Positions 349 through 55,077 of a DNA stretch of 58,210 nucleotides are shown one piece after another (the first letter of the stretch is position 1; the number at the start of each line of letters is the position of its first letter). Both the position numbers and the translations under genes were made by a program. The stretch lies in the NCBI GenBank assembly GCA_029863175.1, contig JAOTVX010000023.1, positions 1 through 58,210 on the forward strand, given 5' to 3'. The notes under the pieces are model-generated. The model made no database searches. It was not told the DNA's origin and saw only the letters and a list, made by a program, of their open reading frames with translations. The stretch is from Betaproteobacteria bacterium. Its GTDB lineage: Bacteria; Pseudomonadota; Gammaproteobacteria; Burkholderiales; SG8-41.

Positions 349-411
349 GGTGATGGGTAACGGGTGAGGGGTGACGGGCGACGGGTGACGGGTCACAGGT
401 TACAGGTCACG
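349..411. repeat. Intergenic heptad array, GGTGACG class
   Basis: Nine successive 7-nt units fill the petC-sspA gap. The first six follow GGTGACG (with GGTGATG, GGTAACG, GGCGACG variants); the last three switch to GGTCACA, GGTTACA, GGTCACG. GTGAC and GTCAC are reverse complements, so the two halves can pair with each other. The array ends 3 nt before the petC stop codon at 415-417. Confidence 0.85.
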
Positions 412-414
412 GTA

Positions 415-1188
415 TTAGTGGACGGCCTTCCAGTACTCCTTCTTCAGGGCGTAAGCGAGCACGAACAGGATGGCGAGGAAGAGCAGAACGTAAAAACCAA
501 TCTCGATGCGGGTGCGCTTCACCGGCTCGGCCATGTAGGCCAGAAAGTTGACGAGGTCGCCTACCAGGCGGTCGTACTCGAGCGGGTTCAGGCTCCCCGG
601 CCGGGCGAACACGAGTTTCTGCACCTCGCGCTTTTCCACGTCTTCCTCGTCGTTACCGCGGGGGATCGTGACCACTTCCGTGCGCAGTTCCTGCTCGCCC
701 TGCAACTGCCACAGGACGTGCGGCATGCCGACATCGCGATAGACGACGTTGTTCCAGCCTGTCGGTCGCGCTGGGTCGCGATAAAAGCTTCGCAAATAGG
801 TGTAGAGCCAGTCCGCACCGCTGCCTGCAGGCGAAGCGCGCGAACGCGCGATCACGGTGAGGTCCGGCGGAACCGCCCCGAACCATTCCTTCGCGTCATT
901 CGGATTCATGTTGTTTTTCATCAGATCGCCAACCTTCGCACCTGCGAAGATCAGGTTGTCGCGAATCTGCTGCGCAGTGAGACCCAGGTCCTCCAGCCGG
1001 TTATAGCGCATGTAGCTCGCGCTATGGCAGCCGAGGCAATAGTTCACGTAGACCCGCGCGCCGCGCTGCAGCGAGATCAGGTCATACTCATCGATCGGCG
1101 CGCGGTCGAGCGGTACTTCATCCCCCGCCGCCAGGGCAAGCGCCGGCGCCGCGAGCAGCGCCACAAGCAGTTGCCTGCCGCGGCCCAT
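415..1188 (-). CDS. petC: Cytochrome c1 of the bc1 complex
   Basis: Encodes the membrane-anchored c-type cytochrome that passes electrons from the Rieske centre to soluble cytochrome c or a terminal oxidase. The 257-residue protein has a signal peptide ending near residue 21, a single heme motif CLGCH at residues 51-55, a GMPHVLW segment that supplies the distal methionine, and a C-terminal transmembrane helix followed by basic residues (KKEYWK). Length is normal for the proteobacterial family. It is the last gene of petA-petB-petC, 1 nt after petB, so co-translation is likely. Confidence 0.97.
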   Translation of the reverse strand: MGRGRQLLVALLAAPALALAAGDEVPLDRAPIDEYDLISLQRGARVYVNYCLGCHSASYMRYNRLEDLGLTAQQIRDNLIFAGAKVGDLMKNNMNPNDAKEWFGAVPPDLTVIARSRASPAGSGADWLYTYLRSFYRDPARPTGWNNVVYRDVGMPHVLWQLQGEQELRTEVVTIPRGNDEEDVEKREVQKLVFARPGSLNPLEYDRLVGDLVNFLAYMAEPVKRTRIEIGFYVLLFLAILFVLAYALKKEYWKAVH

Positions 1189-1189
1189 G

Positions 1190-2596: not shown

Positions 2597-2599
2597 CGC

Positions 2600-7089: not shown

Positions 7090-7091
7090 CG

Positions 7092-7197
7092 GTTCAACGT
7101 TCCAAGTTCAAGGTTCAAGGTTCAAGGTTCAAGGTTCAAGGTTCAAGGTTTAGACAGAATACACGGAACTTTGAACTTGGAACATTGAACATGGAAC
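7092..7197. repeat. Intergenic inverted heptad array, GTTCAAG class (hisF-hisI gap)
   Basis: The left arm (7092-7147) has eight 7-nt units: GTTCAAC, GTTCCAA and six perfect GTTCAAG. After a loop of about 17 nt, the right arm (7165-7197) has four full units and a partial one, alternating GGAAC and TGAAC forms, the reverse complement of the left. The array fills almost the whole gap between hisF and hisI. Confidence 0.93.
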
Positions 7198-7202
7198 GGC
7201 GG

Positions 7203-7973
7203 CTACAGCCGGACTTCGATGCCATGGCGCGCCATGTGCTCCTTCGCCTCGCGCACCGTGTACTCGCCGTAGTGAAAAATGCTCGCGGCCAGCACTGCGT
7301 CAGCATGGCCTTTGAGCACCCCGTCGACCAGATGATCGAGATTGCCTACACCACCGCTCGCGATGATGGGGATTGATAGCGCCTCGGAGAACGCGCGAGT
7401 TAGCTCGAGGTCGAAGCCGCTGCGGGTTCCATCGCGGTCCATGCTGGTCAGGAGAATTTCGCCGGCGCCGGCCCGCTCCATTCTCCGGCCCCAGTCGAGC
7501 GCATCCAGTCCCGTCGGCTTGCGCCCACCGTGGGTGTAGACCTCCCAACGCGGCGTGCCCGCACCTGGCACCTGTTTCGCGTCTATTGCCACGACGATGC
7601 ATTGCGCCCCGTAGCGGCCAGTCGCCTCGGCGACCAACTCCGGATTCTCCACCGCGGCCGTATTGATGCTGACCTTGTCGGCACCGGCATTGAGCAGGCG
7701 CCGCACGTCTTCCACGGCGCGAACGCCGCCGCCCACCGTCATTGGAATGAACACTTGCGCAGCGACTGCCTCCACCACGCCAACGATGACGTCCCGGCCG
7801 TCGCTCGAAGCGGTAATGTCCAGAAAGGTCAGCTCGTCCGCGCCCTGCTCGTCGTAGCGGCGCGCGATCTCCACGGGGTCGCCGGCATCGCGCAGCCCGA
7901 CGAAGTTGACGCCCTTCACCACTCGCCCGGCCGTGACGTCAAGACAGGGGATGACGCGCTTGGCAAGACCCAT
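7203..7973 (-). CDS. hisF: Imidazole glycerol phosphate synthase cyclase subunit HisF
   Basis: Beta/alpha-barrel enzyme that, with HisH, turns PRFAR and ammonia into imidazole glycerol phosphate and AICAR. The two catalytic aspartates sit in VIPCLDV near the N-terminus and in VVAIDAKQV mid-protein; phosphate-binding loops GGGVR and ASGGVG are present. Start set at 7973 ([13 protein letters not shown]), giving 256 residues, the family's usual size. It follows hisA across a repeat array. Confidence 0.97.
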
Positions 7974-8050
7974 ACGGATGGCAGGCTGAAGGATGGAGGC
8001 AGGCGATTCGGAATCAGCCCTCGTTATCCGTCTGCCTTTTGCCTCCCGTC
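7974..8050. repeat. Inverted short-unit array overlapping the hisA 3' end
   Basis: A left arm rich in GGATGGN/AGGCAGG-like units (about 7975-8003) faces a right arm with ATCCGTCTGCC and TTGCCTCCCG segments (about 8026-8048), roughly its reverse complement. The right arm reaches into hisA and encodes its last residues (GRQKADG). Unit boundaries are less clear than in the GTTC class. Confidence 0.6.
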
Positions 8051-8800
8051 TTCGGCGTTTGTGGCGCTGAGATGGTCGGCAAGCTTCTGGGCTTCCGCGT
8101 AGTTGAGCTTTCCCTCGTACACCGCGCGCCCGGTTATCGCGCCGGTGATGCCCTCGCGCTCGACCGCGCACAGCGCCTTGATGTCGTCCAGGCCGGTAAT
8201 GCCCCCGCTTGCGATGACGGGAACCGTCAGCTGGCGCGCAAGCATGACGGTCGCCTCGACATTCACGCCCTTCATCATGCCGTCGCGCCCGATGTCGGTG
8301 TAGATGATCGCCTCGACGCCGTAGTCCTGAAATTTTTTCGCAAGGTCCGCTACCTCGTGGCCCGTCATCTTCGACCAGCCGTCGACCGCGACCTTGCCAT
8401 CCTTCGCATCGAGCGCCACCATCACGTGCCCGGAAAACGCCGTGCAGGCATCGTGCAGGAAACCGGGCGTTTTTACCGCTGCGGTGCCGACGATGACGTA
8501 GCTTATGCCCGAGTCGAGGAGCTTCTCGATGGTGTCGAGATCGCGTACCCCGCCGCCGAGCTGCACCGGGAGCTGGTCGCCCACTGCCGCTACGATGGCC
8601 TTGATCGCGTTCTCGTTCTTGGGCCGACCCGCCGCCGCGCCGTTGAGATCGACGACGTGCAGTCGCCGCGCCCCCTGCGCGAACCATTGCTTGGCCATGG
8701 CCCCCGGGTCATCCGAGAACACCGTAGCGGTAGACATCACGCCCTGTTCGAGGCGCACGCATTTTCCGTCTTTGAGGTCGATTGCGGGAATGATCAGCAT
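8024..8800 (-). CDS. hisA: ProFAR isomerase HisA
   Basis: Amadori isomerase of histidine synthesis, a beta/alpha-barrel homologue of HisF. Catalytic Asp lies in [13 protein letters not shown] near the start and the second Asp in [11 protein letters not shown]. The start at 8800 ([13 protein letters not shown]) gives 258 residues; the longer upstream frame is not HisA-like. The last residues ([11 protein letters not shown]) are coded by an adjacent repeat array and have no match to the usual C-terminus as I know it. Confidence 0.96.
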
Positions 8801-8822
8801 GGTTGCGAAGTTAAGTTGCAGG

Positions 8823-9494
8823 TTAAGCGGGAACCGGTTGCGCCGCGTGGCGTAAAGTGGGCTGCCACGCCACGAAATTGGCCAGCAGCCGCAAGCCGGC
8901 GGCCTGGCTCTTCTCTGGATGAAACTGCACGGCAAAGACATTGTCTCGAGCGCACGCGCAAGCGAACGACACGCCGTAGACCGCCTCCGCGGCGACAATG
9001 CCGCGATTCGCTGGCTCCGGGAAATAGCTGTGCACGAAGTAGAAACGGGCGTTTTGCGGAATGCCCTCCCACAGCGCATGAGGCAACGTCTGGCGCACCT
9101 GGTTCCAGCCCATGTGCGGCACCTTCAGCCGTACGCCCCCGGCATCGGTCACTTTCTCGGCGGAAAAGCGCCGCACTTTTCCCGGCAGCAGGCCAAGGCC
9201 GGCGACATCGCCCTCATCGCTGCGCTCGAACAGCATCTGCAGCCCGATGCAGATTCCAAGAAACGGCTTGGCACGCGCGGCCCCGACGACGGCCCCACGG
9301 AGCCCGCGCGCGTCGAGCTCGCGCATGCAGTCGGGCATCGCGCCCTGTCCCGGAAAGACCACCCGCGCGGCGCGCCTCACCGTTTCCGGATCGTTGGTGA
9401 CGGCGACCGTCAGCCGGGGAGCGACGCGCTCGACGGCCTTCGCCACGGAGCGGAGATTCCCCATACCGTAATCAACCACAACGACGTCGGTCAT
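8823..9494 (-). CDS. hisH: Imidazole glycerol phosphate synthase glutaminase subunit HisH
   Basis: Class I glutamine amidotransferase that supplies ammonia to HisF. The 223-residue protein starts with [14 protein letters not shown], has the nucleophile Cys in [11 protein letters not shown] and the His-Glu pair in VQFHPEKS near the C-terminus. It sits 22 nt upstream of hisA in the operon. Confidence 0.97.
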
Positions 9495-9504
9495 GACTTC
9501 GTCA

Positions 9505-9595
9505 GTTCCAAGTTCAAAGTTCCACGTTCAATGTTCCATGTCTTACGCTAAAGCCTCGGATTTGAACCTTGAACTTTGAACCTTGAACTCGGAAC
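9505..9595. repeat. Intergenic inverted heptad array, GTTCNAN class (hisB-hisH gap)
   Basis: Left arm (9505-9539): five units GTTCCAA, GTTCAAA, GTTCCAC, GTTCAAT, GTTCCAT. Loop of 21 nt. Right arm (9561-9595): five units TTTGAAC, CTTGAAC, TTTGAAC, CTTGAAC, TCGGAAC. The two 35-nt arms can pair over most of their length. Confidence 0.92.
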
Positions 9596-9606
9596 GGGCG
9601 ACCGCC

Positions 9607-10191
9607 CTATAGGGAGCCTTTGGTGGAAGGCACGCCCTTTACGCGCGGGTCGGGCTCGACCGCCGTGCGCAGCGCGCGCGCAAATGCCTTGAATGCGGTC
9701 TCTGCCTGGTGATGTGCGTTGGCGCCATTGAGATTTTCAAGGTGAAGCGTGATCCGGGCATGATTGACGAAGCCCTGAAAAAACTCGTGGACGAGGTCGA
9801 CGTCGAATTCGCCAATGCGTGCGCGCGTGAATCCGACACGGTATTCAAGCCCCGGCCGCCCGGAAACATCCACTACCGCGCGCGACAGCGCCTCGTCGAG
9901 CGGAACGTACGCGTGGCCGTAACGGCGCACGCCCGATTTGTCGCCGACGGCCTTGGCGAAAGCCTGGCCCAGCGTGATGCCGATGTCCTCCACCGTGTGA
10001 TGGGCATCGATATGAAGGTCGCCCTTGGCCGACACCTCCAAGTCGAACACGCCGTGGCGCGCCACCTGCTCGAGCATGTGATCGAGAAAGGGGACGCCCG
10101 TGCCGATCTTTGCCTTTCCCGCCCCGTCGAGGTCGAGCTTCACCGTGATCCGGGTTTCCTGGGTATTGCGGCTGACTTCGGCTTTACGCAT
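9607..10191 (-). CDS. hisB: Imidazoleglycerol-phosphate dehydratase HisB
   Basis: Mn-dependent dehydratase that makes imidazole acetol phosphate. The family's metal-binding motifs are seen as [17 protein letters not shown] and the C-terminal [18 protein letters not shown]. Monofunctional form of about 195 residues without the phosphatase domain of enterobacterial HisB. Start placed at 10191 ([14 protein letters not shown]), the usual N-terminus, instead of the ATG four codons upstream. Confidence 0.96.
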
Positions 10192-10242
10192 GGTGGGGCT
10201 CACGGCGGTGCGGCGCGACGCGCGCAGATTGAGCCTTGGAGA

Positions 10243-11316
10243 TCAAGCGTTGAGGGTACGGGTCAATGCGGCGAGAAAAGCGTCGTTCTCTTGGGGGGTA
10301 CCGACCGTCACCCGCAGGCAATTCGCCAGCAGGCGGTGAGAGCCATGGAGACTCTTGATCAGTACTCCGCGTTGTTTCAAGCCGTCGAAAACACGCTCCG
10401 CGTTGCCAATTCTAAACAGTAGGAAGTTGGCGTCGCTCGGATAGGCCGTCAACCCCGGAACCTCCTGCAACCCGCGCAACAGGCGCCCTCGCTCAAGCTT
10501 GATGGCAGCGGCCTGTTCTGTCAACACTGCCTCGTGCTGCAGCACTTCGCACGCAACCACCTGCGTAAGCGTGTTGACATTATACGGCAAGCGCAACTTG
10601 TCGAGCTGCGCGATCCACTCCCCGCGGCCGGCCAGAACCCCGAGCCGGATCCCGGCCAGCCCCAGTTTCGAGAGCGTACGCATTACCAACAGGTTGGTCT
10701 GCTGCGGCACGCGCGCCATGAAGCTGAGGTCGGCGAACGCATGGTACGCTTCGTCGATCAACACCATGCCCGGCGCTGCCGCGATGATGCGCTCGATCCC
10801 CGCCGCATCGAAAAGGTTGCCCGTGGGATTATTGGGGTAGGCGAGGAAGATCAGCCCCGGCCTGTGCTGCTCGATGCCCGCCAGTAGGCGCCCGACGTCG
10901 AGCCCGAAGTCGTCACGCAGCTCCACGCCGACGTAGCGCACGCCCGCAAACGCCGAAATCATGCGGAACATCGTGAACGAGGGCTCAACGCCGAGCACCA
11001 CGGCTCCGGGGCGCGCTGCCGCTAGCACCAGCATCTGGAGGATTTCGTCCGAGCCGTTTCCCAGCAGTAACTCGGCTGCCTCCGGCACCGCGAAGGACAC
11101 TCTCAGCCGGGCCTTGAGCTGGCCCGCGCCGGGGTCAGGATAGCGGTTGAGCGAAGCGTCCTCGACCAGCCGCGCAATCCGGGCGCGCAGCGCCGGCGGC
11201 AGCCCGTACGGATTCTCCATCGCATCGAGCTTGACCATGCCGGAACTGTCGGGAACGTGGTAAGCGGTCAACGCGCGGATGTCGTCTCGAATGATCTCTT
11301 CGGGTGTTTTCGCCAT
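10243..11316 (-). CDS. hisC: Histidinol-phosphate aminotransferase HisC
   Basis: PLP-dependent class I/II aminotransferase converting imidazole acetol phosphate to histidinol phosphate. The 357-residue protein has MENPYGLPPALR, the NPNNPTGNLF-type loop (AYPNNPTGN), the LIDEAYHAF aspartate segment, and the PLP lysine in LSKLGLAGIRLG. Starts MAKTPEEIIRDDIRAL. Located between hisD and hisB; a 9-nt-unit array lies between it and hisD. Confidence 0.96.
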   Translation of the reverse strand: MAKTPEEIIRDDIRALTAYHVPDSSGMVKLDAMENPYGLPPALRARIARLVEDASLNRYPDPGAGQLKARLRVSFAVPEAAELLLGNGSDEILQMLVLAAARPGAVVLGVEPSFTMFRMISAFAGVRYVGVELRDDFGLDVGRLLAGIEQHRPGLIFLAYPNNPTGNLFDAAGIERIIAAAPGMVLIDEAYHAFADLSFMARVPQQTNLLVMRTLSKLGLAGIRLGVLAGRGEWIAQLDKLRLPYNVNTLTQVVACEVLQHEAVLTEQAAAIKLERGRLLRGLQEVPGLTAYPSDANFLLFRIGNAERVFDGLKQRGVLIKSLHGSHRLLANCLRVTVGTPQENDAFLAALTRTLNA

Positions 11317-11326
11317 AAGTCAGAGC

Positions 11327-11420
11327 AAAGACACAAAGGACACCAAGGACACGAAGGCTTACCCGAACAGAAAGCGATTTGGTCCGGCTGTCCCTTGTGT
11401 CCTTCGCGTCCTTCGTGTCT
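11327..11420. repeat. Intergenic inverted 9-nt array, AAGGACACN class (hisD-hisC gap)
   Basis: Left arm (11327-11357): AAAGACACA, AAGGACACC, AAGGACACG, AAGG. Right arm (11394-11420): CTTGTGTCC, TTCGCGTCC, TTCGTGTCT. The arms are reverse complements with few mismatches. The right arm reaches 2 nt into the hisD stop codon. Confidence 0.9.
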
Positions 11421-12729
11421 ATGCTTTTTCGATCTTCATGCGGTATTCGGCCGACCTGGCGTGCGCGGTCAGGCCTTCGCCACGGGCAAGCTCCACGGCG
11501 ATGGCACCGAGCTCGCGCGCGGCCTCCTTCGATATGCGAATGACGCTCGACCGCTTCTGGAAGTCGTAGACCCCGAGCGGCGAGGAAAAACGCGCGGTAC
11601 GTGACGTGGGCAGAACATGGTTCGGCCCCGCGCAGTAATCCCCAAGCGCCTCGGAACTGTAGGGTCCGAGGAAAATCGCGCCCGCATGCCGGATCGCCGG
11701 CAGCAAGACATCCGGATCTTTGACCGCCAGCTCGAGATGCTCCGGCGCAATCCGGTTGACCACTTCGCAGGCCTCATCGAGGTCGCGCACCCTGATCAGC
11801 GCGCCGCGCTTGTGCAGGGCCGCAGCGATCACATCGCGCCGCGGCATGTCCGCGAGCTGCCGCTCGATGCTGGCAGCCACCGCCTCGAGTAAGCGCAAAT
11901 CGGGCGTGATGAGGATCGCCTGCGCCAGCTCGTCGTGCTCCGCCTGGGCGAAGAGATCCATCGCAACCCAGTCGGGCGCGGCGCTTCCGTCACACACCAC
12001 CACGATTTCCGAGGGGCCGGCAATCATGTCGATGCCGACGACCCCGAAAACGCGCCGCTTCGCGGCAGCAACGTAGGCGTTGCCCGGGCCAACGATCTTG
12101 TCCACGGCGGGCACCGTTGCAGTGCCGTACGCAAGCGCAGCCACCGCCTGCGCGCCGCCGATCGTGAACACCCGCTCGACCCCGCAGATGGACGCGGCGG
12201 CGAGCACAAGGTCGTTTCGTTCGCCGCCAGGCGCCGGCACCACCATGATGATTTCGCGCACGCCCGCCACCTTGGCCGGCAACGCGTTCATGATCACGGA
12301 CGAGGGATAGGCCGCCTTGCCGCCCGGCACGTAGATGCCAACGAGATCGAGCGCCGTGACGCGCTGGCCAAGCTCTGTCCCGTTTGCTTCACGGTAGCTC
12401 CACGAGTCGGTGAGCTGCCTTTCGTGAAAGGTGCGCACCCGTGCTGCGGCCGCTTCGAGAGCCTTGCGCGTTTTCGCGGGAATTCGACCGAGTGCCGCGC
12501 GCGCCTCCGCGGCCGGAACTTCCAGCGCGGCCACTGATGCCGCCTCGACTCGGTCGAAGCGCCGCGTGTAATCAAGAAGCGCCGCGTCACCGCGCGTTTT
12601 GACGCCGGCAAGAATTCCCGCCACTGCGCTCTCGACGGCCGCATCCTGCGCCGACTCGAACGCAAGCAGCTCCTGCAGCCGGGCATCGAAATCGGGCTGG
12701 TCGCTCGTCAGGCGTCGGATCGTGGTCAT
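11419..12729 (-). CDS. hisD: Histidinol dehydrogenase HisD
   Basis: NAD- and zinc-dependent enzyme catalysing the last two steps, histidinol to histidine. The 436-residue protein is full length, with [20 protein letters not shown], the [10 protein letters not shown] segment, DMIAGPSEI, and the catalytic Glu-His pair in RIAPEHLEL. The final zinc-ligand region GPNHVLPT is present. Its ATG overlaps the end of the hisG reading frame by 4 nt, as expected in an intact operon. Confidence 0.97.
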
Positions 12730-12968
12730 GAGACGGCACGCGCAAAGGCGTCGAACAGGGGCCGGATCGCGGCGCGTTTTACCTTCAGCGCCGCCTGGGT
12801 GACGACGAGGCGCGCCCTGATGAGCCGCACATCGGGCCGCGCCGTCGCCATGATCAGTTTACGGGAGGTCTTCGGGTCGCCGCGCGCCATGACGCCCGCC
12901 GCCTTGAGCAGCGGCACCGTTTGGTCGTAAATGCGGCCCTTGGACAGGGCGAAGGTGATCACCGGCAA
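12726..12968 (-). pseudogene. hisG: hisG with a large internal in-frame deletion
   Basis: ATP phosphoribosyltransferase, first enzyme of histidine synthesis, is normally about 210-220 residues in the short (HisZ-dependent) form. Here only 80 codons remain. Residues 1-50 match the N-terminus ([20 protein letters not shown], then [16 protein letters not shown]), and from about residue 52 the sequence jumps to the extreme C-terminus ([20 protein letters not shown]). The middle, with the PRPP-binding loop, is missing. The junction (about 12810-12818) lies in a GCGCG-type short repeat and keeps frame and the ATGA overlap with hisD. The product cannot be catalytic. Real deletion or assembly collapse are both possible. 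Confidence 0.9.
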
Positions 12969-12990
12969 ACCTCAAAAAAACAGCATTTTA

Positions 12991-13077
12991 CCGCCAAGGC
13001 CGCGCGGAGCGCCAAGGGACCGTGAGTGCCCGCTGCTTTCGATTGCTCCTCTTCTTGGCGTCTTGGCGCTGAGAGGT
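12991..13077. repeat. Intergenic inverted array, GCCAAG/CTTGGC class (murA-hisG gap)
   Basis: Left arm (about 12991-13018) holds CGCCAAGGC and GCGCCAAGG units; right arm (about 13053-13077) holds CTTGGCGT, CTTGGCGC, then TGAGAGG. The arms are reverse complements with about 35 nt between them. Period is 9-10 nt. The same class recurs at 54984-55009. Confidence 0.75.
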
Positions 13078-13084
13078 TCGATGG

Positions 13085-14576
<1,492 letters not shown>

Positions 14577-14661
14577 GGCTTTATCCTGTGGGGTTATGCG
14601 CCGGGGCGCAAGAGCGTATGGAAATCGCACGAGCCACCAGTCAAGCATTTCAGGCGTCAGG

Positions 14662-15444: not shown

Positions 15445-15455
15445 CCGCAGGACCT

Positions 15456-16355: not shown

Positions 16356-16362
16356 TTAGCGC

Positions 16363-16441
16363 GTGATGAGTGATGAGTGATGAGTGATGGGTGATGAGTG
16401 ATGAGTGATGGGCAAAACCACCTAAGACCCATTACTCATTG
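16363..16441. repeat. Intergenic heptad array, GTGATGR class
   Basis: Seven tandem 7-nt units (16363-16411): GTGATGA three times, GTGATGG, GTGATGA twice, GTGATGG. A short right arm with CCCATTA and CTCATTG (16428-16441) is the reverse complement of the GTGATGG/GTGATGA pair. It sits between the ABC ATPase and mlaB. Confidence 0.88.
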
Positions 16442-16452
16442 CTGGGCGGGGC

Positions 16453-19779: not shown

Positions 19780-19875
19780 GGCGCGCATCGGTCTGAACGT
19801 CGCCTCATGAATGCTGAATTCCGAAACCTGAAGCCTGAACCCTGAACTTGGAACTTGGAACTTGGAACTTGGAAC
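19733..19875. repeat. Intergenic heptad array, TTGGAAC/CCTGAAC class
   Basis: Seven consecutive 7-nt units (19827-19875): CCTGAAG, CCTGAAC twice, TTGGAAC four times. A weaker left arm near 19733-19760 contains GATCCAGGA and CCAGATTCAG segments and partly complements the right. The left portion overlaps the end of the LLM remnant. It ends 20 nt before the dehydrogenase start. Confidence 0.82.
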
Positions 19876-19894
19876 TTTAAATCCTCGATCCTGA

Positions 19895-28307: not shown

Positions 28308-28333
28308 AGCCGTGAACATCCGCTTCACGCACC

Positions 28334-30045: not shown

Positions 30046-30136
30046 GTTCCGGGTTCCGGGTTCCGGGTTCCAGGTTCAAGGTTCAAAGTTGCAGTATTGG
30101 CGTAGAACATTGAACATTGAGCATTGAACATTAAAC
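30046..30136. repeat. Intergenic inverted heptad array, GTTCCGG/GAACATT class (mshE-mshG gap)
   Basis: Left arm (30046-30087): GTTCCGG three times, GTTCCAG, GTTCAAG, GTTCAAA. Right arm (30105-30136): GAACATT twice, GAGCATT, GAACATT, AAAC. It begins 5 nt after the mshE stop and ends 10 nt before the mshG start codon. Confidence 0.9.
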
Positions 30137-30146
30137 ACGCAAATCG

Positions 30147-35545: not shown

Positions 35546-35577
35546 GATTTTGCCGGACTCCCGTCCGGCAAAATCCT
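35544..35577 (+). repeat. Perfect 15-bp hairpin spanning a stop codon
   Basis: Arms 35544-35558 (AGGATTTTGCCGGAC) and 35563-35577 (GTCCGGCAAAATCCT) are exact reverse complements around a TCCC loop. The left arm starts within the TAG stop of the upstream gene. No run of T follows the right arm (TAACC), so intrinsic termination is doubtful; it may protect a 3' end or be a processing site. Confidence 0.92.
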
Positions 35578-36534: not shown

Positions 36535-36539
36535 CCTAC

Positions 36540-36618
36540 GTTCCGAGTTCCGGGTTCCGCGTTCGGGGTTCCGGGTTCAATGATCCCAACCCCGAACTTT
36601 GAACTTTGAACCTTGAAC
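36540..36618. repeat. Intergenic inverted heptad array, GTTCCGN class
   Basis: Left arm (36540-36581): GTTCCGA, GTTCCGG, GTTCCGC, GTTCGGG, GTTCCGG, GTTCAAT. Right arm (36591-36618): CCCGAAC, TTTGAAC twice, CTTGAAC. It lies between two convergent genes, the minor prepilin and the histidine kinase. Confidence 0.91.
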
Positions 36619-39167: not shown

Positions 39168-39189
39168 GAGCGGGTCTCAAAAATTCTTA
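39156..39189 (+). repeat. Perfect hairpin spanning the permease stop codon
   Basis: AAGAATTTTTGAGA (starting near 39157) and TCTCAAAAATTCTT (ending near 39189) are exact reverse complements around a short GCGGG-type loop. The TGA stop is inside the left arm. Coordinates are good to about 1 nt. This is the third hairpin of this design in the pilus locus. Confidence 0.88.
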
Positions 39190-39202
39190 AGCGGGAACCG
39201 GA

Positions 39203-40867: not shown

Positions 40868-40873
40868 CAAAAA

Positions 40874-41058
40874 GTTCGAAGTTCCAGGTTCAAAGTTTCA
40901 AGTTCGAAAAGCCCGCGGAAGACGCGGGCTTTTTTTGTTGGCGGCGCGCCACTGGCGGAACCGAACCCCGAACACCGAACGCCGAACCTTGAACCTTGAA
41001 CCTTGAACCTTGAACCTTGAACTCCGAACCCAGAACACGGAAACACGGAAACACGGAA
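40874..41058. repeat. Long composite array with a nested terminator (prepilin-antiporter gap)
   Basis: Left arm (40874-40908): GTTCGAA, GTTCCAG, GTTCAAA, GTTTCAA, GTTCGAA. Right arm (40961-41037): eleven 7-nt units, CCGAACN four times, TTGAACN five times, CCGAACC, CAGAACA. These are followed by three 8-nt ACACGGAA units (41035-41058). The rho-independent terminator of the prepilin gene sits in the loop. It lies between convergent genes. Confidence 0.93.
40911..40936 (+). terminator. Rho-independent terminator of the prepilin gene
   Basis: Perfect 7-bp GC stem GCCCGCG / CGCGGGC with a GAAGA loop, followed by seven T. It ends transcription of the prepilin gene 44 nt after its stop codon. The preceding AAAA run makes it possibly bidirectional, which would also serve the convergent antiporter gene. 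Confidence 0.93.
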
Positions 41059-43036: not shown

Positions 43037-43044
43037 CGCGGAAA

Positions 43045-43142
43045 CAGTGAACGGTGAACAGTGATCTGAGAATCGTAAACGGCGGTTTCGAATCTCTCGT
43101 GACCAACGGCTTATGGCTAACGGGTCACCAGTCACCGGTCAC
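43045..43142. repeat. Inverted heptad array between the antiporter gene and kdsD
   Basis: Left arm (43045-43065): CAGTGAA, CGGTGAA, CAGTGAT. Right arm (43107-43141): CGGCTTA, TGGCTAA, CGGGTCA, CCAGTCA, CCGGTCA. Partial complementarity between GGTGA and GGTCACC-type units. It lies between divergent genes, where a terminator is not needed. Confidence 0.8.
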
Positions 43143-43207
43143 CCCAGTGGATGATGCCCTATCGGGCCTGAAATGCAAGCGGACGGACCAGTCGAAGCGA
43201 TTGATTC

Positions 43208-43225: not shown

Positions 43226-44230
43226 ATGAAGACGGCACCTGCAAGCAGCGGCATCGCGCCCGACCAGCACCCGGCGCTCGCGATGGCGCGCACGGTGCTC
43301 GAGATCGAGGCGCAGGCTATTTCGGGACTGGTCGCCCGGCTCGATGCGCATTTTGTGCGCGCCATAGAGCTGATCATGGGCCGCCGCGGGCGTGTGGTCG
43401 TCAGCGGTATTGGCAAGTCAGGTCACATCGCCCGCAAGATTGCATCGACCCTTGCCAGCACCGGCACGCCTGCTTACTTCGTGCATCCCACGGAGGCCAG
43501 CCATGGCGATCTCGGCATGGTGACCCGCGACGACGTGTTCATCGCGCTCTCCAACTCGGGAGAAAGCGCGGAGCTGCTGGCGATTGTTCCTTTGCTCAAG
43601 CGCCAGGGCGCGAAGCTGATCGCCTTGACCGGCAATGCCGCGTCTACGCTCGCCCAGGAAGCCGATGCGCACCTCTATGCAGGTGCGGAGAAGGAAGCAT
43701 GCCCTCTGAACCTTGCGCCGACTGCCAGCACCACGGCAGCGCTGGCCCTCGGTGACGCACTCGCAGTAGCGATAATGAGCACGAAAGGCTTCACGAAGGA
43801 CGACTTCGCCGCAGCCCATCCCGGCGGGACCCTGGGCCGCAAGCTGCTCACGCACGTGCGCGACGTCATGCGCACGAGCGCGAACGCCCCCCGTATCGGC
43901 CACCAGGCCACGCTCATGGACGGCATGCTCGAGATGTCGCGGGGACGCATGGGCATGACCGCCGTCCTCGACGATGCCGGCCGCGTCGTGGGAGTTTTCA
44001 CCGACGGCGACTTGCGCCGCAACATCGAAAAAGACACGGACATGCGCTCGACCCGGATCGATGAGGTCATGACTCGCAATCCGCGCACCATCGGGCCGGA
44101 CCGCCTCGCGGCCGAGGCCGTCGAGATCATGGAGCGCTACAAAGTGAATCAGCTGCTTGTCGTTGATGACCGCCAGCAGCTGGTCGGCGCCCTGAACATG
44201 CACGACTTGTTCCGGGGCAAGGTCCTCTAA
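43226..44230 (+). CDS. kdsD: Arabinose-5-phosphate isomerase KdsD
   Basis: Converts ribulose-5-phosphate to arabinose-5-phosphate for KDO synthesis. The 334-residue protein has a SIS sugar-isomerase domain (VVVSGIGKSGHIARKIASTL, HPTEASHGDLGM, SNSGESAELL) followed by two CBS domains (MRTSANAPRI, DEVMTRNPRTIGPD). First gene of the KDO/LPS-transport cluster. Confidence 0.97.
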   Translation: MKTAPASSGIAPDQHPALAMARTVLEIEAQAISGLVARLDAHFVRAIELIMGRRGRVVVSGIGKSGHIARKIASTLASTGTPAYFVHPTEASHGDLGMVTRDDVFIALSNSGESAELLAIVPLLKRQGAKLIALTGNAASTLAQEADAHLYAGAEKEACPLNLAPTASTTAALALGDALAVAIMSTKGFTKDDFAAAHPGGTLGRKLLTHVRDVMRTSANAPRIGHQATLMDGMLEMSRGRMGMTAVLDDAGRVVGVFTDGDLRRNIEKDTDMRSTRIDEVMTRNPRTIGPDRLAAEAVEIMERYKVNQLLVVDDRQQLVGALNMHDLFRGKVL

Positions 44231-44232
44231 AT

Positions 44233-44318
44233 GTTCCGCGTTCAAGGTTTCAGGGTCAAGGTCCCATTGCTGGCGGTTCAAACTTTGAACTTTGAACTTT
44301 GAACCCAGAACGTTAAAC
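44233..44318. repeat. Inverted heptad array between kdsD and kdsC
   Basis: Left arm (44233-44260): GTTCCGC, GTTCAAG, GTTTCAG, GGTCAAG. Right arm (44284-44318): TTTGAAC three times, CCAGAAC, GTTAAAC. It begins 2 nt after the kdsD stop and ends 3 nt before the kdsC ATG, so the kdsC ribosome-binding region lies within the right arm. Confidence 0.9.
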
Positions 44319-49298: not shown

Positions 49299-50211
49299 GG
49301 ACAACCGTGAGAAGCTGAGGCTGGAGTGGGTCGCCGGGCGCAGTGGCGGCGTTAAGGCGCTCAACAGCGAGCTCACCATGGATTCCTCCAAGGGCCTGAT
49401 TGGCCATCTCAACTTCATCCATCCCAACTTGATCCAGGTGCTCGGCCCGTCCGAGATCGAATACCTCGACGGGCTCGAGGCGGCCAGCTGCCGCTCGGTC
49501 CTCACGCAGCTCTGCACCAAGGAACTGGCGTGCTTTATTATCGCGGGAGCCGATTGCGTTCCGCGGTCGCTGATCGACATTGCCGAGACGGCAGCGACCG
49601 CGTTGCTGCGCTCGCCCGTGCCAAGCGTGGAGCTGATGTGGATGCTGCGCCCCTATCTCGCGCGCGCGCTCGCCGAAAGCACGACGGCGCACGGTGTCTT
49701 CCTCGACGTGCTCGGGATGGGCGTGCTCATCAAGGGCGACTCCGGCGTGGGCAAGAGCGAGCTCGCTCTGGAACTCATCAGCCGCGGCAGCGGCCTCATC
49801 GCCGATGACGTCGTCGAGCTCTACCGTGTCGGGCCGGAGACGATCGAAGGGCGCTGCCCGGAGCTGCTGCGGGACTTTCTGGAAGTGCGTGGCCTCGGGG
49901 TGCTCAATATCCGGAGCATTTTCGGAGAGGCGGCATTGCGGCCCCGAAGAAACCTCAAGCTGATTGTCCGGTTGGAGCGTTTATCGCCAGCTGACCCGCG
50001 TTCCGGCGAGCGGCTCCCGCTGCATGCCAGCACCGAGCCCATCCTCGGCATCGACGTCCACAAAGTAACCCTTCCGGTTGCTGCCGGCCGCAACCTGGCC
50101 GTGCTAACGGAGGCCGCGGTACGCAATTACGTTCTGCAGCTGCGTGGCGTGGACAGCACCGAGGAATTCGTCGCCCGGCAGGCCCAACAAATGCAAGAGC
50201 GTGACCAGTGA
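49267..50211 (+). CDS. hprK: HPr kinase/phosphorylase HprK
   Basis: Bifunctional Ser kinase/phosphorylase of HPr. The 314-residue protein starts MPQVSVARLFEDNREKLRLEWV (ATG 49267), with Walker A GDSGVGKSELALEL and the HprK signature LEVRGLGVLNIRSIFGEAAL. The last two codons and the stop are part of a GTGACCA repeat, the left arm of the downstream array. Confidence 0.96.
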   Translation: MPQVSVARLFEDNREKLRLEWVAGRSGGVKALNSELTMDSSKGLIGHLNFIHPNLIQVLGPSEIEYLDGLEAASCRSVLTQLCTKELACFIIAGADCVPRSLIDIAETAATALLRSPVPSVELMWMLRPYLARALAESTTAHGVFLDVLGMGVLIKGDSGVGKSELALELISRGSGLIADDVVELYRVGPETIEGRCPELLRDFLEVRGLGVLNIRSIFGEAALRPRRNLKLIVRLERLSPADPRSGERLPLHASTEPILGIDVHKVTLPVAAGRNLAVLTEAAVRNYVLQLRGVDSTEEFVARQAQQMQERDQ

Positions 50212-50275
50212 CCAGCTATTTGACGGTCGAGGTTCTTAAAGTTTTCGGGTCACCGGTCACCGCTCACCGGTCACG
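50201..50275. repeat. Inverted heptad array, GTGACCA/CGGTCAC class (hprK-rapZ gap)
   Basis: Left arm: two GTGACCA units (50201-50214) that contain the hprK stop codon. Right arm (50247-50274): GGGTCAC, CGGTCAC, CGCTCAC, CGGTCAC. The arms are reverse complements. The spacer of about 32 nt has no clear feature. Confidence 0.85.
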
Positions 50276-50287
50276 GCTTTCCGTGGC

Positions 50288-51124
50288 ATGCAGCTGATCC
50301 TCATCACCGGCCTCTCGGGGTCGGGTAAAAGCATCGCTCTTCATGTGCTCGAGGACAGCGGCTTCTACCACATCGACAATCTGCCTGCGCGGCTGCTTCC
50401 GGACGTAGTAGATTTCCTGACGGCGGCAGGCCATCCACGCGCGGCGATCAGTCTCGAGCTCCGCGCCGGCGAAGCGGTTGCGGAGCTACCCGAAAGACTG
50501 GCGCAGTTCAAGCGCCGCGGCGTGGACGCGCGCATGCTATACCTCGAGGCCAAAGCCGACACGCTGATCAAACGGTTTTCCGAAACGCGCCGCCGCCACC
50601 CCCTCTCCGACGGCGGGCTCACGCTCCCCGAATGCATCGAGCGCGAACGCGCTCTGCTCTCGCCTCTGGCAGACGCGGCACACCGCGTTGACACCAGCGA
50701 TCTCAGCCCGACTGCGCTGCGCAGCTGGGTCAAGGATTTCATGGCGCTTCCCCCTACCGGGCTCACGCTTCTTTTCGAATCGTTCGGCTTCAAGCACGGC
50801 ATCCCGCTCGACGCCGATCTGGTATTCGATGTGCGCTGCCTGCCGAATCCGAACTACGACCCCCGCCTCCAGCCCCTCACCGGCCGTGATCCTGCGGTCA
50901 TCGAGTTCCTGGGCGCCGATGCGCAGACCGCAAAGATGCTCGCGGACATCCGGCGTTTCGTCGATGACTGGCTGCCGTGCTTCGAGCGTGACAACAGGAG
51001 CTATCTCACGGTCGCGATCGGGTGCACTGGCGGGCGGCACCGTTCGGTCTACTTTGTCGAGACACTGGCGGAGCACTTCAGGGATAAGGCCCGGGTCCTG
51101 GTGCGCCACCGTGAACTCTCGTGA
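50288..51124 (+). CDS. rapZ: RNase adapter protein RapZ
   Basis: P-loop protein that in E. coli binds small RNAs and guides RNase E to GlmZ; it also senses GlcN6P. The 278-residue protein shows Walker [21 protein letters not shown], the [10 protein letters not shown] segment, and the conserved C-terminal RNA-binding region [21 protein letters not shown]. Full length. The usual hprK-rapZ neighbourhood, but the ptsH-ptsI genes often found next are not present here. Confidence 0.97.
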
Positions 51125-51246
51125 GGGCGCGAGAGCGTCAGGGCGTGAGAGCGAAGCACACTGTTTTTGATTATCGATCTCACGATGTCTCGATCTTACA
51201 ATCTCCCGGTCTTTCGATCTCCCGACCTCCCGATCTCACGACTCAA
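51121..51246. repeat. Inverted octad array, GTGAGAGC/CGATCTCN class
   Basis: Left arm (51121-51152): GTGAGGGC, GCGAGAGC, GTCAGGGC, GTGAGAGC, starting in the rapZ stop codon. Right arm (51175-51246): nine 8-nt units around CGATCTCN (CGATCTCA, CGATGTCT, CGATCTTA, CAATCTCC, CGGTCTTT, CGATCTCC, CGACCTCC, CGATCTCA, CGACTCAA). GAGA and TCTC cores pair. Period is 8 rather than 7. Confidence 0.9.
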
Positions 51247-51258
51247 TGTTGAGCTAAC

Positions 51259-52443: not shown

Positions 52444-53555
52444 ACACCGCGTCCGAGACCACGGCTGGCACGCGCCCGCCCCCCGGAGGGATTGGTTTTT
52501 TCGAGCGCTACCTCAGCGTCTGGGTCGCGCTGTGCATCGTATTGGGAATCGCCCTCGGGCATTACTTCCCGGAACCTTTCAAGACGCTGGGGCGCATGGA
52601 GATCGCCCGCGTAAACGTTCCGGTCGGCCTTCTCATCTGGGTCATGATCATTCCGATGCTGCTCAGGATCGACTTTCGCGCGATCCATCAAGTGAGCGAG
52701 CACTGGCGCGGGATCGGCGTGACGCTGCTGGTGAACTGGGCGCTGAAGCCTTTCTCGATGGCACTCCTTGCCTGGATTTTCATCCGCCACGTTTTCGCGC
52801 CCTGGCTGCCGCCCGAGCAGATCGACAGCTACGTCGCTGGCCTGATCCTGCTGGCTGCCGCCCCGTGCACTGCAATGGTGTTCGTCTGGAGCCAGCTGGC
52901 CCGCGGCGATCCCTATTTCACCCTGAGCCAGGTGGCACTCAACGACACGATCATGATCATCGCGTTCGCGCCCATCGTCGCGCTGCTGCTAGGGCTGTCC
53001 TCGATCACAGTGCCGTGGGACACGTTGCTGACCTCGGTCGGCCTGTACATCGTGGTGCCGGTGATTATCGCGCAAGTCTGGCGCGGCGCGCGCCTGCGAA
53101 GGGGCACGGCAGCCTTGCAGCAAACGCTGGAAAAACTGCAGCCCTGGGGCGTTGCCGCGCTTTTGCTGACGCTGATCCTGCTGTTCGGGTTTCAGGGAGA
53201 GCAGGTCCTCGGGCAACCGCTCATCATCGTCATGCTCGCGGTGCCCATCACCATCCAGGTCTACTTCAATTCCGGGCTCGCCTACCTGCTCAACCGGCGC
53301 CTGGGGGTCGCGCATTGCGTCGCGGGACCTTCGGCGCTGATCGGCGCGAGCAATTTCTTCGAGCTCGCCGTCGCAGCCGCGATCAGCCTGTTCGGCTTCG
53401 ACTCCGGGGCGGCCCTCGCCACGGTGGTGGGCGTGTTGATCGAGGTGCCGGTCATGCTGACCGTAGTGCGAATCGTCAACGCGAGCGAGCCGTGGTACGA
53501 GCGCCGCGCGGCCGTGGTCCGCGCTAATGCAGCTCCAGCCGCTCCCCCCAGATAA
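52440..53555 (+). CDS. acr3: Arsenite efflux transporter Acr3
   Basis: Ten-helix arsenite/proton antiporter. The 371-residue protein starts MNTASETTAG, has the family segment FFERYLSVWVALCIVLGIALG, the conserved Cys in LLAAAPCTAMVFVWSQLARG and the GASNFFELAVAAAI segment. Its ATG overlaps the arsC remnant by 4 nt, the mark of a former operon. No arsR regulator is visible. Confidence 0.96.
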   Translation: MNTASETTAGTRPPPGGIGFFERYLSVWVALCIVLGIALGHYFPEPFKTLGRMEIARVNVPVGLLIWVMIIPMLLRIDFRAIHQVSEHWRGIGVTLLVNWALKPFSMALLAWIFIRHVFAPWLPPEQIDSYVAGLILLAAAPCTAMVFVWSQLARGDPYFTLSQVALNDTIMIIAFAPIVALLLGLSSITVPWDTLLTSVGLYIVVPVIIAQVWRGARLRRGTAALQQTLEKLQPWGVAALLLTLILLFGFQGEQVLGQPLIIVMLAVPITIQVYFNSGLAYLLNRRLGVAHCVAGPSALIGASNFFELAVAAAISLFGFDSGAALATVVGVLIEVPVMLTVVRIVNASEPWYERRAAVVRANAAPAAPPR

Positions 53556-53613
53556 GCTCGCGCACGCCCCGTCGCCCGTGTCGGCGCGGGTGAGGGAACT
53601 TCTCCAGCGCTAG

Positions 53614-54711
53614 CTATTGGTGCCCCACGCTGAACGGTGAGAGCTCCGATTCGCGTTTCACGTTTCCCGTTTCACGAGATTCGAGCTGAGCGAGAATCTT
53701 CCTCACCGGCACTGGAATCGCGGCGCACCGCGCCTCCTCGAGTGAGACCCAGACTTGCCCCAGCTCTGCCGCATGCGGCACGAGGGCCGAAACGTGCACG
53801 CGGAGAGGCCGGATATCGAGGGTAAAGTGGGTGAATCCGTGCCCGAGGGTCGGCAGTTTTTCAACCCCGAGCACGTGAGCACGGAAGCGCTGGAGGCAGT
53901 GCGCCTGCAGATCGGCGTGACGAGCGACCTCCGGCAGGCACCACAGGCCGCCCCACAGACCCGGGGCCGGACGCTTCTCCAGCAACACTTCACCGGCGCA
54001 CGTGAGCGCCAGCATGATGGTGCGTTTGTGCGGCCGGTGCTTGTGTGGCCGCACGCCCGGCAGCGCGCCGATTGCGCCGCGCTTGAAGGCAACGCAATCG
54101 GCATGGACCGGACAGGCCGCGCAGCGTGGCCTCACCCGCGTGCACACGCCGGCGCCGAGATCCATCAAGCCCTGTGTGTAGGTCTGGAGATGGCGTCGCG
54201 GCAGAAGCCGCTCCGCCTCACGCCACAGCCGGTCGGCGATCCGTTTCTCGCCCGGGAAGCCCTTCACGCCACGGTAGCGTGCCAAAACCCGCTTGACGTT
54301 GCCATCCAGAATGGCCCGGCGAGCGCCGAACGCGAAGATGCCTATCGCCGCGGCAGTGGAGCGACCGATCCCGGGCAGCGACTCGACGTCCTCAACGCGT
54401 TTGGGAAAGCGACCGGCATGGGACCCAACGACGACCTGTGCGGCGCGGCGCAGGTTGCGCCCGCGCGCGTAGTAGCCAAGGCCGCTCCAGAGACGCAGGA
54501 CTTCGTCCTCCGGCGCCGCCGCGAGCGAGGCGATCGTCGGAAAATGCGACAGGAACCGCAGATAGTAGGGAATGACCGTCGCCACCTGGGTCTGCTGCAA
54601 CATGATCTCCGCAAGCCAAATGCGGTACGGATCGCGCGTGCCCTGCCATGGCAGGTCGTGCCGCCCGTGCGCCTTTTGCCACGTAACGATGCGGGTTGCA
54701 AAGCTGCGCAT
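53614..54711 (-). CDS. mutY: Adenine DNA glycosylase MutY
   Basis: Removes A mispaired with 8-oxoG. The 365-residue protein has catalytic Glu in WLAEIMLQQTQVATVIPYY, helix-hairpin-helix LPGIGRSTAAAI, Asp in ILDGNVKRVLARY, the 4Fe-4S cluster CTRVRPRCAACPVHADC (spacing 6-2-5), and a NUDIX-like C-terminal domain. Start at 54711 (MRSFATRIVTWQ); upstream codons are not MutY. The final residues (ETGNVKRESELSPFSVGHQ) are read from a 7-nt repeat (CGTTTCA, CGTTTCC, CGTTTCA at 53654-53674). Confidence 0.96.
   Translation of the reverse strand: MRSFATRIVTWQKAHGRHDLPWQGTRDPYRIWLAEIMLQQTQVATVIPYYLRFLSHFPTIASLAAAPEDEVLRLWSGLGYYARGRNLRRAAQVVVGSHAGRFPKRVEDVESLPGIGRSTAAAIGIFAFGARRAILDGNVKRVLARYRGVKGFPGEKRIADRLWREAERLLPRRHLQTYTQGLMDLGAGVCTRVRPRCAACPVHADCVAFKRGAIGALPGVRPHKHRPHKRTIMLALTCAGEVLLEKRPAPGLWGGLWCLPEVARHADLQAHCLQRFRAHVLGVEKLPTLGHGFTHFTLDIRPLRVHVSALVPHAAELGQVWVSLEEARCAAIPVPVRKILAQLESRETGNVKRESELSPFSVGHQ
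53654..53674. repeat. Heptad repeat inside the mutY 3' end
   Basis: Three 7-nt units CGTTTCA, CGTTTCC, CGTTTCA lie within the last codons of mutY and encode part of its divergent tail. A possible partner arm (GCTGAACGGTGAGAGC, about 53630-53645) lies at the stop codon. It shows array DNA becoming coding sequence. Confidence 0.65.
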
Positions 54712-55077
54712 GCCAGGGGCCGTGACTAGAGCGCGTCTCAAAAATCGAAAAACATCATTAGCCGCAGATAAACGCGGATAGAAAACTGGCGGTACCACCG
54801 ACAACGCAAACGTTACTCTGGTTTTTTTCCTGTTACGATTCACCGCTTACCGTTTACCAACAATGGCCGGCGGTGAACGCCGATTGCCGCGGATAAAGGA
54901 GGAAGTGCATTGATTTGCGCGGGTGTTCTGTCCGCATTCATCTGCGTTTATCTGCGTTTATCTGCGGCTCCATTCTTGTTTTTCTTGGCGGCCTTGGCGT
55001 CTTGGCGGTTCACTTGTCGCCTTGTTTTTCCCCAGCGTCCTCGGCGGTGAGAGGTTTGCTTTTACCGGTCACCGTCG
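54712..55077. repeat. 366-nt gap filled with a mosaic of repeat classes
   Basis: No gene. Four array classes lie side by side: a GCCGCAGATAAACGCGGAT segment (54761-54779) that complements a 10-nt array ATCTGCGTTT, ATCTGCGTTT, ATCTGCGGCT (54939-54968); 7-nt TTACCG units near 54838-54858; a 9-nt CTTGGCGGC, CTTGGCGT, CTTGGCGGT block (54984-55009); and a GGTCACC/TTACCGG segment ending at the AsmA stop (55062-55075). It separates AsmA from mutY, both on the minus strand. Confidence 0.8.

Follow-up and report, generated by a model that had tools for sequence, protein, structure and literature searches.

Short tandemly repeated repetitive (STRR) sequences of cyanobacteria are intergenic tandem arrays of heptanucleotides, CCCCAGT being one such unit. 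We describe here a family of short-unit tandem arrays in the intergenic gaps of a 58,210-nucleotide stretch of DNA from a Betaproteobacteria bacterium of the Burkholderiales (assembly GCA_029863175.1, contig JAOTVX010000023.1, positions 1 to 58,210 of the forward strand; hereafter the window, 62.7% GC) and of its relatives, in which two arrays of one unit class can stand in the same gap in opposite orientations, as the arms of a pair. These arrays are real and occur far above chance. What persists is their architecture, i.e., one class in both arms, a fixed polarity, a core within the unit, and a place behind a gene. An earlier reading of the window (the original prediction) held that the hairpin formed by the two arms, and not their sequence, was kept. 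Like STRR, the arrays are intergenic and mostly heptanucleotide: among 847 intergenic rows of Tandem Repeats Finder (TRF) in 1.49 Mb, 472 had a period of 7 nucleotides (nt) and 124 a period of 14 (596 together), followed by periods of 9, 10 and 8, in agreement with the units of 7-10 nt originally reported. The single STRR unit that we tried (CCCCAGT, twice) had no match in 2.37 Mb.

The closest description that we found concerns Geobacter metallireducens. The report on it (PMC2700814) describes paired tandem sites of 7-9 nt on opposite strands, with three to five units each and consensus sequences containing free positions (GTTGCTYN, TCTCCGTS[Y], and MTYCTGA for classes 1 to 3). The classes are few, with 8 to 24 pairs in each, and the distance within pairs is variable in classes 1 and 2; the authors read the pairs as sites of unknown global regulators ("global regulator binding sites"). 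Opposed tandem arrays of 7-9 nt units in one gap, with several classes per genome, are common to that system and ours. Ours differs by its many unit types (the 242 intergenic TRF rows sampled from one relative, G056, fell in 27 unit-type clusters, 14 of them with at least two rows) and by the upkeep and class replacement among relatives described below. The Geobacter units had few or no matches in the 2.37 Mb (GTTGCTYN twice, 0; TCTCCGTSY twice, 0; MTYCTGA three times, 3).

Repetitive extragenic palindromic (REP) sequences, bacterial interspersed mosaic elements (BIME), and REP doublets forming hairpins (REPIN) are likewise extragenic and dispersed, with inverted pairs, positions at gene 3' ends, and mosaic clusters (for REP, PMC3733652). 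They differ from our arrays, whose arms are tandem short units and whose GTTC class (units GTTCNNN facing GAACNNN) shows no clear link to the Y1 transposase. The REP tags GTAG and CGTC stood at the outer stem end of 5 and 7 of 169 array stems, where control words stood 5 to 9 times. TAACTGA-type heptanucleotide repeats, likewise intergenic and in tandem, form direct arrays, with one inverted repeat among the 170 sets of BOGUAY (PMC4679880), whereas here opposed arms are common and polarity is fixed. A class of 10-nt units resembles tandem-repeat miniature inverted-repeat transposable elements (MITE) in its fixed boundary and in the loops and flanks that copies in G056 have in common; a target duplication or transposase is not shown for our arrays, and the 7-nt classes have no conserved flanks. 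Arm pairing with variable unit length, put forward originally as what sets the family apart, is new only in part, having a precedent in the Geobacter pairs. In the literature covered, we found no printed match for the unit strings tried; searches by concept led to the Geobacter report and to one on Beggiatoa.

Data set and detection

Among the 80 matches listed for the HisD-like protein of the window, the closest was that of the metagenome-assembled genome Betaproteobacteria bacterium SG8_41 (91% identity; locus L001, genome G001). The GTTC inverted-array pattern was found in 10 of the 74 genomes of the G001 family; the same pattern read backwards, as a control, was found in none but two, with one match per strand. 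We sampled seven of these ten genomes (G001, G003, G032, G053, G054, G056, and G060), leaving out G008, G010, and G059. The full set comprises 141 loci and 2.37 Mb, window and L001 included, in which three successive GTTCNNN units matched 892 times; the first analyses covered 1.49 Mb. The sampled stretches are not random, many having been chosen as orthologues of the window or from contigs that surfaced in array searches, so that intergenic densities are on the high side; comparisons of genes with spacers and of arms with arms should be little affected.

Genes were called with our own codon-model caller (60 genes in the window), which was re-trained for the later gap analyses. An array gap of the window is a gap of at least 40 nt with at least 20 nt of array at a TRF score of 40 or more; the looser score of 28 was used for counts by gap orientation across relatives. 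A stem was accepted when the best stem lay more than three standard deviations above 20 dinucleotide shuffles (z > 3). Gap statistics had a lower limit of 40 nt (25 nt for orthologous gaps) and an upper limit of 400 to 600 nt, depending on the analysis, except that the analysis of arm match and gap orientation had no upper limit. The class cores were picked after inspection of the data, a choice to which the polarity and arm tests are symmetric.

Architecture of the paired arrays

Inverted array pairs are a feature of spacers: the full set contained 162 in 361 kb of intergenic DNA and three in 2.01 Mb of coding DNA, two of which read as ordinary arrays and may lie in miscalled genes. Equal frequency inside genes, named in the original prediction as an outcome that would argue against it, was thus not what we observed. 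In the window and seven relatives, arrays accounted for 2.9 to 20.8% of the bases between genes and for 0.26 to 1.0% of those in coding sequences; the corresponding values were 1.5% and 0.3% in 79 loci of other Betaproteobacteria. At the TRF score of 28, arrays occurred in 405 of 993 gaps, i.e., 289 of the 696 co-directional, 76 of the 135 convergent, and 40 of the 162 divergent ones. Stems in co-directional gaps started a median of 6 nt past the stop codon and ended a median of 16 nt ahead of the next start.

The claim that both arms belong to one class in most gaps was borne out and extends to the relatives. In the 1.49 Mb, 157 gaps contained two distinct arrays, and the arms of 71 (45%) matched in inverted orientation (Smith-Waterman score, SW, of at least 12), against 7% for the direct orientation in the same gap, 8.5% for inverted arms of different gaps, and 2.5% for direct arms of different gaps. 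The same-gap pair scored above all sampled cross-gap partners in 33 of the 157 gaps and above their median in 117, as expected since some unit classes are common.

The orientation of the pair is also fixed. Read 5' to 3', the arm carrying the core preceded the complementary arm in 75 of 77 cases for GTTC, 29 of 29 for GTGA, 71 of 71 for GT[AG]A (which overlaps GTGA), 9 of 10 for GGAT, 8 of 8 for GGT[AG]A, 10 of 10 for TGAC, and 8 of 8 for GAT..ACGC. This polarity holds in co-directional, convergent, and divergent gaps wherever the classes are present; when five cores were split by gap orientation, the three exceptions were all in co-directional gaps. When all 169 array stems were pooled regardless of class, G exceeded C in 119 of the 5' arms and fell short of it in 32, and 129 of these arms were richer and 35 poorer in purines. 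The rule is therefore strict within the named classes and a tendency overall.

Units combine a constant core with free positions, most clearly so in the GTTC class. Adjacent GTTCNNN units differed in their free bases in 334 of 448 comparisons, positions 5 and 6 being mostly A/C and A/G, respectively, and position 7 any base. Middle units between two exact GTTC units kept the core in 300 cases and had one change in 39, a count that skips units with more changes and is thereby biased towards the core. How mismatches distribute over the seven phases does not depend on this choice: in 287 runs of period 7 the variance was 1.93, against 0.94 if mismatches were even, and exceeded expectation in 239 of the runs, so that mismatches crowd on certain phases. 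The homogeneity of the two GTTC arms was uncorrelated (rho 0.0006, 63 gaps), i.e., the arms are homogenised separately, and their unit numbers were weakly correlated (rho 0.23, p = 0.046, 74 gaps).

Persistence and replacement in orthologous gaps

Orthologous gaps tend to share the presence of inverted arrays. Excluding the close pair formed by the window and G001, 270 pairs of gaps whose flanking proteins had a median identity of 74% comprised 50 with inverted arrays in both gaps, 51 in one, and 169 in neither (odds ratio 13, p = 3e-17, a value that is optimistic since gap pairs are interdependent). The odds ratio was 16 in the 99 pairs where both gaps measured 80-300 nt. Shuffles matched for length, again leaving out window and G001, gave 25.0 pairs with arrays in both gaps (standard deviation 4.3, maximum 41 in 1000 shuffles), against 53 observed among 336.

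The unit itself can change while the pair remains. In 16 of the 50 pairs with arrays in both gaps, the unit differed in both arms: arms of the two orthologues scored less than 12 with each other and at least 13 with their own partner. Between the window and L001 there is a change of unit number at 7091, a replacement of class at 11327, and an array at 16363 that L001 lacks. The gap at 36535 holds GTTC arrays in the window and in G032, 8-nt GTGAGGGC units in G054, and GTGCAAA units in G053, in each case within about 30 nt past the stop codon of the same gene, with flanking identities down to 34 to 60%. The original prediction was right that something beyond sequence persists, and these replacements strengthen the point.

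Neutral mutation could yield such arrays if tandem units of 7-10 nt grew by slippage wherever spacers are unconstrained, and if the second arm arose through template switching or inversion. The strong variation of unit number in single arms between close relatives (e.g., longest GTGACCA runs of 2 and 10 units), the separate homogenisation of each GTTC arm, and the restriction of arrays to non-coding DNA would all fit. The phase-dependent mismatches and the fixed polarity would not, nor would the recurrence of identical classes across many gaps and genomes or the way in which orthologous gaps retain inverted arrays more often than length alone would predict. Template switching would moreover match the free bases of the two arms, which those of GTTC do not (see below). 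We regard a purely neutral origin as decidedly unlikely.

Base pairing between the arms

If the hairpin were what is kept, an RNA or DNA stem would be under selection (as terminator, protector of mRNA 3' ends, or cruciform) and its sequence would be free. The class match within gaps, the replacement of the class in both arms between orthologues, the start of stems close to the stop codon, and the higher frequency of arrays in convergent than in divergent gaps all speak for this view, as do GGATTGA arms, often with an identical unit. The base pairs themselves do not. Over all classes (166 pairs, 1404 comparisons), arms scored 16.6 with their true partner and 16.6 with class-matched arms of other gaps, the true pairs having been preselected at SW of at least 9, a bias in their favour. 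The same-gap and class-matched scores were 15.3 and 14.9 outside the GTTC class and 19.3 and 20.0 within it. Perfect runs of 14 nt occurred in 11.2% of class-matched cross-gap pairs and 6.7% of true pairs (12.2% and 7.3% without GTTC). Arms from different gaps pairing as well as arms from one gap had been named as a refuting outcome: arms drawn from any other gap matched far more rarely (8.5% against 45%), and those of the same class paired equally.

GTTC arms even depart from pairing. Their free bases agreed at 0.061 within gaps and 0.114 between gaps (77 gaps; none of 1000 permutations as low), and similar values came from the first data set (0.062 and 0.098; 1/1000) and from the later separate stretches (0.060 and 0.130; 1/1000). 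Of the 74 same-gap pairs, 6.8% had a perfect run of at least 14 nt; for cross-gap pairs the share was 20.5%. The relatives are draft genomes in which some contigs start or end inside arrays (e.g., G003:C11, G001:C20). Arrays of the greatest length or perfection may therefore have been lost, which could make long perfect palindromes look scarcer than they are, although this should hardly matter at 11 to 14 nt. The avoidance of identical free bases is a result for GTTC and not a general rule: GGT[AG]A, TGAC, and GAT..ACGC gave no clear difference between same-gap and cross-gap identity, and other classes are discussed below.

Read in the orientation of the transcript, the 122 co-directional stems had 196 G.U and 205 A.C oppositions (p = 0.69), and selection on an RNA hairpin is unsupported by this lack of G.U excess; a tRNA control gave 5 and 1, numbers so small that they serve as a sanity check only. 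TTTT followed within 12 nt downstream in 13 of these stems and preceded 3 of 122 upstream, a bias that terminators would explain; with TTTT in only 13, most lack the T run that, with a stem, makes an intrinsic terminator. A stem kept for pairing would also not need a fixed polarity, and would have to be tolerated several times within one same-strand run containing HisD-like and His_biosynth genes. We consider selection on the hairpin itself unlikely. Of the original claim, the class-level match of arms and the class change in both arms stand, and the part concerning base pairing does not; covariation, similarly, holds for the unit class (the 16 replacements) and is not shown at base pairs. Pairing as such gives no sign of selection.

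Spread and candidate factors

The reading we prefer, tentatively and with slightly less than even confidence, is that the arrays are paired-site extragenic elements, which spread and are replaced like BIME or MITE and have many interchangeable unit classes. Such an element would consist of two opposed arrays of one short unit, with constant core and free positions, on either side of a short centre, and would sit in a spacer, mostly close behind a stop codon and in a single polarity. The core would serve as recognition site for a DNA-binding factor with sequence specificity, akin to a transposase or a nucleoid protein, which requires two opposed arrays, and each class might have its own factor or specificity. 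Where spacers are permissive, elements would spread and take each other's place in the manner of REP/BIME or MITE. The potential to form a hairpin would be incidental, and long perfect palindromes of the GTTC class may be lost or selected against. If so, paired-site elements hold much of the spacer DNA in these genomes, its sequence turning over while architecture and place persist, and they offer a concrete test of how extragenic repeats are kept up, be it by site recognition, hairpin, or a writing mechanism. Fixed polarity, constant core, and no base-level covariation of arms beyond class are constraints on any account of bacterial heptanucleotide repeats.

The 10-nt class, whose unit reads GATNNACGCN, behaves as a dispersed element. 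Its 5' boundary, TTTAGCCGC, is conserved with up to 1.8 bits, loop and flanks are shared at 83 to 95% identity by at least three of the G056 copies, and a mosaic of CCAAG plus GAT recurs at 16 places in 13 loci. The unit pattern occurs in 44 of the 74 family genomes and in 23 of 249 genomes of a phylum sample, mostly as single matches that are possibly due to chance; besides G001, only G114, G198, G234, G250, and G258 had at least two. The GTTC and 10-nt loads correlate across genomes (rho 0.55, kinship uncorrected), which hints at a common permissive factor. Arrays can be nested in G056 (L168:18658-18989 and L169:14538-14717), in that the arm or loop of one class encloses a pair of a second class; the L168 nested pair has its own flanks.

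Several results weigh against paired-site elements. The 7-nt arrays have no conserved flank (GTTC and GT[AG]A arrays gave almost no flank signal), and GTTC loops were alike (SW of at least 12) in 19 of 861 loop pairs against one when shuffled, the GT[AG]A loops in 13 of 1378 against two; whole-element copying is therefore not shown for the 7-nt classes. These figures come from alignments of loops only, as BLAST of gap against gap is misleading when gapped alignments run from arm to arm. For the 10-nt class as a MITE, no target duplication was shown. Free-base identity is higher within than across gaps for GTGA (0.089 and 0.033), GT[AG]A (0.065 and 0.035), and, in ten gaps, GGAT (0.352 and 0.140). 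Part of this excess reflects the pooling of subclasses under one core, since class match by itself then raises the same-gap value (GGAT units divide into GGATTGA, GGATTCA/GGATCC, and GGATGAA types); yet both GGATTGA arms often share one unit. The 27 clusters of G056 would need many factors or one loose one, and none of the three candidates searched over the 74 genomes (Y1 transposase, reverse transcriptase, and SbcD) explains array load. The Y1 transposase (PF01797), present in 52 of them, had loads that correlated with the 10-nt class at rho 0.35 and with GTTC at 0.05 (kinship uncorrected); it was missing in 5 of 30 genomes with at least ten matches to the 10-nt unit, and 13 genomes with at least two Y1 copies had no 10-nt match. 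SbcD (TIGR00619) was below the cut-off in all 74 genomes, array-free ones included (25 weak matches), and passed in 8 of 14 control genomes. No plasmid matched either of two array stretches used as queries.

The reverse transcriptase is of interest for a different mechanism, in which both 3' ends at spacer breaks or nicks are extended by an enzyme with a class-specific G-rich unit. We think this head-to-head writing, as at fused telomeres, very unlikely, and equally so its corollary that a telomere-fusion-like pair can have its class rewritten in both arms together while the site persists. It would explain the fixed polarity, together with the excess of G (119 against 32 stems) and of purines (129 against 35) in most 5' arms, the class identity of the arms with separate variants in each, and the mostly unique loops, and telomerase-like synthesis of tandem repeats in bacteria is described for DRT10 (PMC12632851). 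However, RVT_1, matched in 25 of the 74 genomes, had no match in G001, G010, G032, G053, and G059, which all bear GTTC arrays (as drafts, they may be incomplete). Many unit types would demand many templates, and the terminator within the loop of the gap at 40868 and the common loops of the 10-nt class are not easily accommodated.

Opposed arrays could instead bind a nucleoid-type protein that insulates gene ends, and be maintained by selection on the host. Core, polarity, upkeep in orthologous gaps, and preference for convergent gaps are compatible with such sites, and global regulators were suggested for the Geobacter pairs (PMC2700814). Yet arrays in 405 of 993 gaps would seem too many for ordinary regulation, the unit types are many, and only 10 of the 74 family genomes have the GTTC pattern, which makes host sites improbable, slightly more so in our view than neutral mutation.

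Arrays along the window

Of the window's 38 gaps of at least 40 nt, 13 hold a tandem array, and arrays cover 16.6% of intergenic and 0.5% of coding bases; the 18 intergenic TRF rows fall in 8 unit-type clusters. The arrays were found by TRF where they had been reported and read as described. "About twenty" gaps was an overcount, 13 to 15 being fair. Of the pairs listed originally, those at 349, 12991, 50201, and 51121 are weak by the stem test. Nine array gaps passed this test (starting at 7090, 9495, 11317, 16356, 30041, 36535, 40868, 44231, and 54712) and four did not: 289-414 (z 1.7), 19780 (0.6, one-armed), 50212 (1.5), and 51125 (2.4). Rfam gave no match in the window at the gathering score.

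GTTCNNN/GAACNNN pairs are the most regular. The pair at 7091..7197 (z 11.5) nearly fills the gap 7090-7202, its two arrays separated by a loop, and has the same class with other unit numbers in L001; that at 9504..9595 (gap 9495-9606, z 15.4) is retained there. The pair at 30046..30137 (z 6.8) lies behind a T2SSE ATPase gene (28334-30040, Pfam), in a gap with GTTC arrays in G001, G060, and G003 and a different class in G053. Another is found in the convergent gap at 36539..36618 (z 10.3), and one at 44233..44311 (z 5.8) behind a KpsF/GutQ-family gene (43226-44230), with GTTC arrays also in G054, G056, G003, and G032. A GAACNNN array at 19823..19877, found by TRF, has one arm only and no stem. 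In the convergent gap at 40872..41058 (z 7.4) the two arms enclose an intrinsic-terminator-like hairpin (about 40907-40937). This layout is repeated in G032, G060, and G001 (orthologous gaps in L160, L152, and L147), i.e., in four genomes with the window's own. Among 130 array stems with loops of at least 15 nt, three had a loop hairpin with a T or A run, all in convergent gaps.

The other classes are more varied. A 9-nt AAGGACACN/GTGTCCTTN pair at 11326..11419 (z 12.4) adjoins the HisD-like gene (11419-12729, Pfam), and the orthologous gap of L001 has a different unit type in both arms. At 16363..16445 a GTGATGA array found by TRF is followed by a short CCCATTACTCATTG arm (z 3.7); none like it was found in the orthologous gap of L001, and G054 has a different unit. 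The pair CGCCAAG/CTTGGCG read at 12988..13068 is weak and its stem not above shuffles: GCCAAG/CTTGGC at 12991, as originally listed, did not hold up (gap 12963, z -0.1, no array at a TRF score of 40). One same-strand gene run with His_biosynth and HisD genes (7090-16452) thus has arrays in four gaps (7090, 9495, 11317, and 16356) and weakly in a fifth (12963); strong terminators in such a run would be expected to harm.

Weaker stems accompany a 7-nt GTGACGG/GTAACGG array with a short GGTCACAGGTTACAGGTCACGG arm (349..412, gap 289-414, TRF and reading; z 1.7) and a degenerate GTGAACG/GGTCACC pair in a divergent gap (43043..43143, TRF and reading; z 1.7). Between the HPr kinase and RapZ genes, a GTGACCA/GGTCACC pair (50201..50278, z 1.5) overlaps the stop codon with its left arm; GTGACCA runs reach 2 units in the window, against 10 in G001, and the classes differ in G054, G056, and G003. 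Behind the RapZ gene lies an 8-nt G(T/C)GAGAGC/CGATCTCN pair (51120..51241, z 2.4), with a longer array of the same class in G054, different classes in G056 and G003, and none seen in the orthologous gap of G001. A composite at 54761..55060 (z 9.3) contains 10-nt GATNNACGCN/ATCTGCGTNN arms, a CTTGGCGGC unit, and a GGTCACCG remnant.

Other elements

Three of the 25 array-free gaps of the window (28276, 35546, and 39063) also passed z 3, with palindromes of a different kind. These form a second family of short near-perfect palindromes (28276-28310, 35546-35577, and about 39155-39195), also seen at L159:5720 and in the gaps 3584-3682 of L154 and 6742-6952 of L150, with examples such as GAGTTTGTCGGACTN..AGTCCGACAAACTC or GATTTTGCCGGACTCCCGTCCGGCAAAATCC. 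The palindrome at 28276 is absent from the orthologous gap of G001 (58 nt vs 28 nt). The family is REP-like and possibly mobile.

G056 also carries a dispersed non-coding element of about 270 nt, which begins AACCTATTTCATATATAGGC. Its loci are L370:7990-8264, L203:12864-13138, L180:17119-17390, L201:4108-4374, and L168:13822-13969. Four copies are 98.5-99.6% alike, one shorter match is about 95% alike, and a distant one in L199 stands at 71%.

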